Shown here: positions 162-48,839 of the stretch, in pieces
Numbering within the stretch: the first letter of the stretch is position 1
Layout: each line of letters opens with the position of its first letter
NCBI GenBank assembly: GCA_900315885.1
Contig: ONAT01000009.1
Location: 1-48,839, forward strand
Reading direction: 5' to 3'
Source of the DNA: an uncultured Erysipelotrichaceae bacterium
GTDB lineage: Bacteria; Bacillota_I; Bacilli_A; RFN20; CAG-826
Length of the DNA: 48,839 nt
Notes under the pieces: model-generated
What the model was told of the DNA's origin: nothing
What the model saw: the letters and a program-made list of their open reading frames with translations, nothing else
The model's database searches: none
Program-made: the position numbers and the translations under genes

Positions 162-253
162 CTATATCGTTTCATTTGACCCTTTTTATTGCTTGTTTTT
201 TTGTTTTATTCTTTTTTTCCCTTTATTTGTCGCATTTACTTGTTCCACTAACA
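162..253 (-). repeat. 92-bp inverted repeat, left copy
   Basis: Read on the minus strand, this segment is identical, base for base, to 48743-48834 on the plus strand. The identity stops abruptly on both sides. It covers the last 21 codons of a small gene, the intergenic ribosome binding site and the first codons (MKRY) of the next gene. The two copies face each other in inverted orientation at the extreme ends of the window. Confidence 0.93.
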
Positions 254-48506: not shown

Positions 48507-48532
48507 AAAATACTTCCAATAAAACAAATGTT

Positions 48533-48541
48533 TGTTATAAT
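48533..48541 (+). promoter_or_regulatory. Extended -10 promoter of the right-end small gene
   Basis: TG-T-TATAAT is an extended -10 element; TTCCAA 16 bases up is a weak -35. The predicted start at about 48548 coincides with the base of the first leader hairpin. Confidence 0.6.
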
Positions 48542-48548
48542 TTATATA

Positions 48549-48655
48549 GTGTAGCACTCTCCGTAGCTACACGAGAAGGAAGTCTATATTGCCCTCATAT
48601 ATTATTTTACCCAAAAATAAATAGGCTTCCTTCACCTACATTGTTGGAAAACAAT
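48549..48655 (+). ncRNA. Three-hairpin structured leader RNA, family not recognised
   Basis: Hairpin 1: GTGTAGC (48549-48555) with GCTACAC (48566-48572). Hairpin 2: GAAGGAAGTCTAT (48575-48587) with ATAGGCTTCCTTC (48621-48633), 13 pairs with one G-U. Hairpin 3: ATTGTT (48640-48645), GGAA tetraloop, AACAAT (48650-48655). The three stems fill nearly the whole leader up to AAAGGATG. No stem is followed by a T run, so it is not an ordinary terminator. I could not match it to a riboswitch, T-box, SRP or 6S RNA from memory. Confidence 0.6.
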
Positions 48656-48672
48656 ATAAAGGATGTAACTAA

Positions 48673-48810
48673 ATGCTCGAACGGATAGAAAAAGCTGCTA
48701 CAAAATTACAAAATGGTGATATTGACGGCTTGAAAACCATTTTGTTAGTGGAACAAGTAAATGCGACAAATAAAGGGAAAAAAAGAATAAAACAAAAAAA
48801 CAAGCAATAA
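48673..48810 (+). CDS. 45-residue basic small protein of unknown function
   Basis: The frame begins MLERIEKAATKLQNGDIDG and ends with a strongly basic tail (GKKRIKQKNKQ). The first half looks like an amphipathic helix and vaguely resembles the QNGD-type opening of sigma factors and conjugative-element helix-turn-helix proteins, which is not enough to assign a family. AAAGGATG lies ten bases before the ATG. It follows an extended -10 promoter and a structured leader and is followed after ten bases by another start codon, so it seems to be the first gene of a small operon. Its last 21 codons and the next start are duplicated exactly, inverted, at 162-253. Confidence 0.6.
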   Translation: MLERIEKAATKLQNGDIDGLKTILLVEQVNATNKGKKRIKQKNKQ

Positions 48811-48834
48811 AAAGGGTCAAATGAAACGATATAG
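48743..48834 (+). repeat. 92-bp inverted repeat, right copy
   Basis: Exact inverted copy of 162-253. It starts inside the small gene and ends within the sixth codon of the following one, five bases before the end of the window. Confidence 0.93.
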
Positions 48835-48839
48835 AAACA
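48821..48839 (+). CDS. Start of a further gene (partial)
   Basis: An ATG ten bases after the small gene opens a frame reading MKRYRN before the window ends. AAAAAGGG lies just upstream as a possible ribosome binding site. In the copy near the left end the corresponding frame continues differently and stops after seven codons. Too little is visible to name it. Confidence 0.4.

Follow-up and report, generated by a model that had tools for sequence, protein, structure and literature searches.

A predicted two-hairpin leader in a dinB-yolD-ECF sigma factor operon of uncultured Bacilli, probably controlled by the sigma factor itself

The last genes of the window (the whole stretch of DNA analyzed here, 48,839 nucleotides, which is the entire contig C11 of assembly G000 and ends at its last base) are firmly identified as an operon composed of dinB, yolD, a structured leader, and a gene for an ECF sigma factor (Table 1). 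Judging from its sequence context, the leader is a control region 5′ of this stress-response sigma factor gene. We consider it probable that this leader belongs to an ECF sigma gene that regulates its own expression and that an insertion sequence has cut this gene here; in related genomes, a gene for a probable membrane anti-sigma factor follows. Operons of this dinB-yolD-ECF sigma type, whose structured leader recurs in relatives, are apparently undescribed. Most of the locus is now explained and a modest novelty is left in the leader; the apparent new element also cautions that an open frame at the end of a contig can be a chimera with insertion-sequence DNA.

Table 1. Features of the window and their positions
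Feature	Position	Strand	Details
Left end of another insertion-sequence copy, interrupted by a different insertion sequence	162-253	-	Right end at the start of contig C37; target duplication TAGGTTTATTTATA
dinB/umuC-like Y-family DNA polymerase gene, 414 aa	46957-48201	+	First in operon; Pfam IMS 2.7e-28, IMS_C 5.8e-13
yolD-like gene, 102 aa	48198-48506	+	Overlaps dinB stop; Pfam YolD 3.5e-12; synteny kept
P1, ECF-type promoter	48516-48546	+	-35 CCAATAAAA (48516-48524); -10 TTTATA (48541-48546)
Hairpin 1	48549-48572	+	z -4.3; at the expected transcript start; equivalent in 14 lineages
Hairpin 2	48575-48633	+	Arms 48575-48587 and 48621-48633, 13 bp; z -5.0; without U tail in the window
Hairpin 3, weak, GGAA loop	48640-48655	+	z -1.2; just 5′ of the ribosome binding site
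ECF sigma gene, first 23 codons, interrupted	48673-48742	+	15/23 residues identical to the 180-aa ECF sigma factor of G003
Insertion-sequence left end, running off the contig end	48743-48839	+	Holds frame codons 24-45 and the ATG at 48821

Y-family polymerase and YolD-like genes adjoin in Bacillus and its phages. The pair in the window likewise consists of adjacent genes, but here an ECF sigma gene follows. A search of the literature on Y-family polymerases and YolD found nothing related. When 279 genomes of the order were searched with a profile, the ECF orthologues formed a clear group, with dinB and yolD directly upstream in all 30 of the orthologous ECF loci examined. The dinB-yolD pairs in genomes G001 and G002 are of a more distant kind, and no ECF gene follows them.

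The identity of the interrupted gene is apparent from a genome of the same genus (G003; CANQQL010000019.1, uncultured Bacilli bacterium, isolate Lapin-011), in which a related dinB, yolD, and leader are followed by an uninterrupted gene for an ECF sigma factor. This protein contains Sigma70_r2 and Sigma70_r4 (Pfam), that is, regions 2 and 4 only, and its best NCBIfam match is SigY, below the cut-off of that model. Over the 23 sigma codons, the two genomes differ 6, 4, and 10 times at the first, second, and third codon positions, respectively, the third being the highest. In G003, the ECF gene is followed by one that encodes a 494-aa protein, in which inspection shows one hydrophobic segment and for which Pfam and NCBIfam gave no significant match. 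It is of the membrane type encoded 3′ of the ECF gene in relatives and is probably an anti-sigma factor. Probable anti-sigma proteins with a single transmembrane segment are encoded 3′ of the ECF gene at locus L010 (1791-3272, minus strand) and, as homologues, at L238 to L242. Several of them start with repeated FVPN-type segments, and they are without a significant Pfam or NCBIfam match.

The motif CCAAYAA was present 5′ of all ECF loci listed, including those of more distant ECF paralogues, and TTWA followed it at an offset of 16 to 17 in the 31 dinB-yolD-linked loci. The loci had first been picked as ECF genes, and the motif was read off afterwards. As one promoter with near-constant spacing occurs in all relatives, the ECF sigma factor most likely drives its own leader and would thereby autoregulate through P1, as motif and position suggest. 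Positive autoregulation is usual for ECF operons (PMC8103513). The extended -10 promoter proposed in the sequence-only reading has its TGTTATAAT in the sequence, but a sigma-70 promoter scan of the window found none, and the part common to relatives is the ECF-type P1; the predicted start nevertheless stays near 48550.

The arrangement resembles the autoregulated ECF sigma/anti-sigma operons of Bacillus (SigW, SigM, and SigY) in having a sigma-70 protein of regions 2 and 4 only, a predicted upstream promoter of its own with an ECF-like -10 element, and a downstream gene for a membrane anti-sigma factor, which is probable here. It differs in the dinB-yolD linkage, in the long hairpin leader, in a downstream protein that has no significant Pfam or NCBIfam match, and in the -35 element, which is CCAAYAA instead of the AAC box that is usual for ECF promoters (PMC8103513).

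P1-like sites were also seen elsewhere. In the window's own genome, one lies on contig C38 (7163-7191, L255; CCAATAAAACGAGAAATATTATAATTTAT), directly 5′ of a lipoprotein gene with a short leader, and is a candidate target of the window-type ECF sigma factor or a paralogue. Another on contig C32 (8178-8206, L257) lies 5′ of a gene with a signal-peptide-like start and again a short leader, and may be a chance match. In genomes G134 and G137, P1-like motifs occur shortly 5′ of a glycosyltransferase-like gene, a membrane protein gene, and lipoprotein-like genes (L223, L208, L214, and L232), which suggests an envelope-related regulon. However, P1 motif counts were no higher than in genomes that yielded no close ECF orthologue; most matches are therefore expected by chance, and no regulon is established.

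The leader from 48548 onward has a predicted folding energy of -34.7 kcal/mol (z -4.2), and 0 of 200 shuffled sequences folded as well. The three stems described previously are all present in the sequence. The first two exceed chance and, as far as folding models can tell, hairpins 1 and 2 are real. The third does not, as 25 of 200 shuffles were as good, and with its z-score it is by itself no evidence. The loop of hairpin 1, ACTCTCC, is common to the window and G003. An Rfam covariance-model search of the leader at both thresholds yielded nothing at the gathering score and one chance-level match (E 0.59). The view of this region as a structured leader without an Rfam match was borne out, and related genomes carry a two-hairpin leader of altered stem sequence at the corresponding position.

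Among the 22 lineages compared, 14 have a predicted fold with hairpin 1 at the expected start and hairpin 2 after it, with different stem sequences; in three of these (G068, G220, and G175) an alternative stem overlaps the predicted first one. The two-hairpin leader is unclear or absent in about eight lineages. Stems are replaced outright even within one genus (g24), and across genera the MAFFT alignment of the leaders is unreliable (36% mean identity). The leaders had a mean z of -1.93, compared with -0.33 in 772 control windows from the same loci (p 1.6e-4), with z below -2 in only 7 of the 22. A leader's own stem halves pair at 99 to 100% and swapped halves at 47 to 49%, which supports the structure but is no independent test, since the halves were picked from the folds. 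Overall, the predicted folds indicate that the two-hairpin leader recurs and that its stems are replaced while pairing is kept.

In the reading that we favor, the ECF sigma factor itself would read P1, and a transcript from near 48550 would fold into hairpin 1 and then hairpin 2 ahead of the sigma start codon. As a cis-acting part of this transcript, the hairpins may protect its 5′ end. In relatives with a U-tailed hairpin 2, only part of the P1 transcription would reach the sigma gene, and such attenuation could damp the positive feedback. A strict terminator test detected a U-tailed hairpin in 5 of 28 leaders, with 1.8 expected. The window's hairpin 2 has no such tail, so attenuation is not supported in the window's genus. 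Furthermore, 16 of 28 leaders, with 7.1 expected, have a sigma-A-like -10 box close to the start codon, which may provide basal expression from a second promoter in many relatives. The roles considered for the leader, namely attenuator, stabilizer, or small RNA with a C-rich loop, are all inferred. As the sigma gene is broken in the window's genome, the leader there may be decaying.

Alternatively, the P1 transcript of the relatives could end at hairpin 2 and form a small RNA of 60 to 75 nt whose C-rich loop pairs with the ribosome binding sites of other mRNAs, in the manner of LhrC and RsaE. In 18 of 36 leaders, with 1.1 expected, CCCC fell within the loop of a predicted hairpin, although these leaders are related and not independent, and U-tailed hairpins were found in several lineages. 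UCCC-loop RNAs of low-GC Gram-positive bacteria bind ribosome binding sites; cell-envelope stress induces LhrC of Listeria, which base-pairs with mRNA close to the start codon (PMC4132741). In several relatives, the leaders share with LhrC, RsaE, and FsrA a 5′ hairpin, a U-tailed second hairpin, and a C-rich loop. In contrast to these RNAs, the structure sits in a leader and is known from sequence alone, and both the window and G003 lack the CCCC loop and the U tail. This interpretation is possible but doubtful. Should the RNA with the C-rich loop exist, Bacilli would have an ECF-linked small RNA comparable to those that depend on Sigma-E in enterobacteria. Like MicA, RybB, and MicL (PMC8103513), it would be an RNA from an ECF promoter; unlike them, it would lie inside the sigma gene's own leader and is predicted only, and no sequence relation is claimed. 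A search of the open-access literature found no case of an ECF leader with attenuation or a small RNA. Likewise tentative is the proposition that the leader belongs to a so far undescribed family of RNAs, acting as a small RNA or attenuator driven by an ECF sigma factor, with two hairpins that evolve fast and a C-rich loop in most relatives. If it is true, a stress sigma factor of uncultured Bacilli gains a post-transcriptional arm.

It is rather unlikely that hairpin 2 merely terminates the dinB-yolD operon and that hairpin 1 is a by-product. Hairpin 2 does lie between yolD and the ECF gene and is U-tailed in several lineages, but an intrinsic terminator scan of the window found no terminator-like site, and hairpin 1 lies at the P1 start in 14 lineages. 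Moreover, hairpin 2 is downstream of P1, so P1 transcripts would stop there too.

Hairpin 3 could hide the ribosome binding site and thereby control translation. In G003, a comparable weak hairpin encloses this site and its predicted stem pairs with the AAGAAGG motif, while a 3-bp helix in the window touches AGG. However, the hairpin is weak in both genomes (in G003, z -2.0, with 10 of 200 shuffles as good), and we regard this mechanism as improbable. More improbable still is a role of the inverted repeats as DNA, that is, as operator sites for a P1 repressor. In its favor, G003 has a near-perfect palindrome at hairpin 2, but the sequence of a protein binding site should be conserved, whereas here the stems have been replaced by others that still pair, from one genus to the next and even inside a genus; in addition, the hairpin loops are long and variable.

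The 45-codon frame that begins at the sigma start codon (48673-48810) leaves the sigma gene at position 48743. From there on, the identical sequence recurs at three contig ends (C3, C5, and C31) and at positions 253-162 of C11, and the preceding flanks are unrelated. In total, five identical left ends (TGTTAGTGGAACAAG) and four right ends (TGTTAATTGAAAAAG, on the other strand) were found in the genome, and four left/right pairs show target duplications of 12 to 14 bp, with the direct repeats CGTTTTTGATAAAT, GTGGTTGAAATT, AAGAGCAACAAAAA, and TAGGTTTATTTATA. From these sequence features, the multicopy repeat behaves as an insertion sequence. Its end matched none of the plasmids and viral contigs searched, and its interior is not in the assembly.

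The insertion sequence would have entered the sigma gene after codon 23, making the visible 45-codon frame chimeric and breaking the sigma factor; from its sequence, the gene is broken in the window's genome. The AAAGGATG ribosome binding site, the frame, and the ATG ten bases beyond it at 48821 are all present as first described, but their interpretation changes. The supposed 45-residue basic protein is really 23 ECF sigma codons plus insertion-sequence DNA, which supplies the lysine-rich tail, and the start codon of the supposed second gene lies within the insertion sequence, with the contig ending at 48839. A regulated RNA ahead of a real 45-residue protein and a second gene is hardly credible: the frame is open and preceded by a ribosome binding site, but codons 24 to 45 lie in a repeat that has four further copies in the genome, each in an unrelated context, the frame continues into the sigma factor in relatives, and the repeat boundary at 48743 refutes this reading unless the chimera itself proves to be translated and useful.

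For the copy at 48743, the assembly has no right-hand partner. The copy's own target repeat, 12 to 14 bp long, would end in GAAAACCATTT. A search of the window's own genome (approximately 97% complete) did not find the remainder of the sigma gene or the downstream protein in the assembly; the only match to the sigma remainder was a distant ECF paralogue on contig C35. As the remainder is missing, only one side of the insertion is visible, and a deletion adjoining it is possible.

The truncated second copy noted at 253-162 in the sequence-only reading proved to be one more copy of the insertion-sequence end, with no bearing on the leader. The second insertion sequence that interrupts it has an end that is also found at the end of contig C15. 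Most contig ends of the genome stop approximately 99 bases inside a repeat common to another contig. There are many different repeats of this kind, several with related ends (TGTTA...GTAAATGCAACAA), and by their sequences many families of insertion sequences appear to be present in this small genome. Contigs C1 and C29 have runs of N at both ends.
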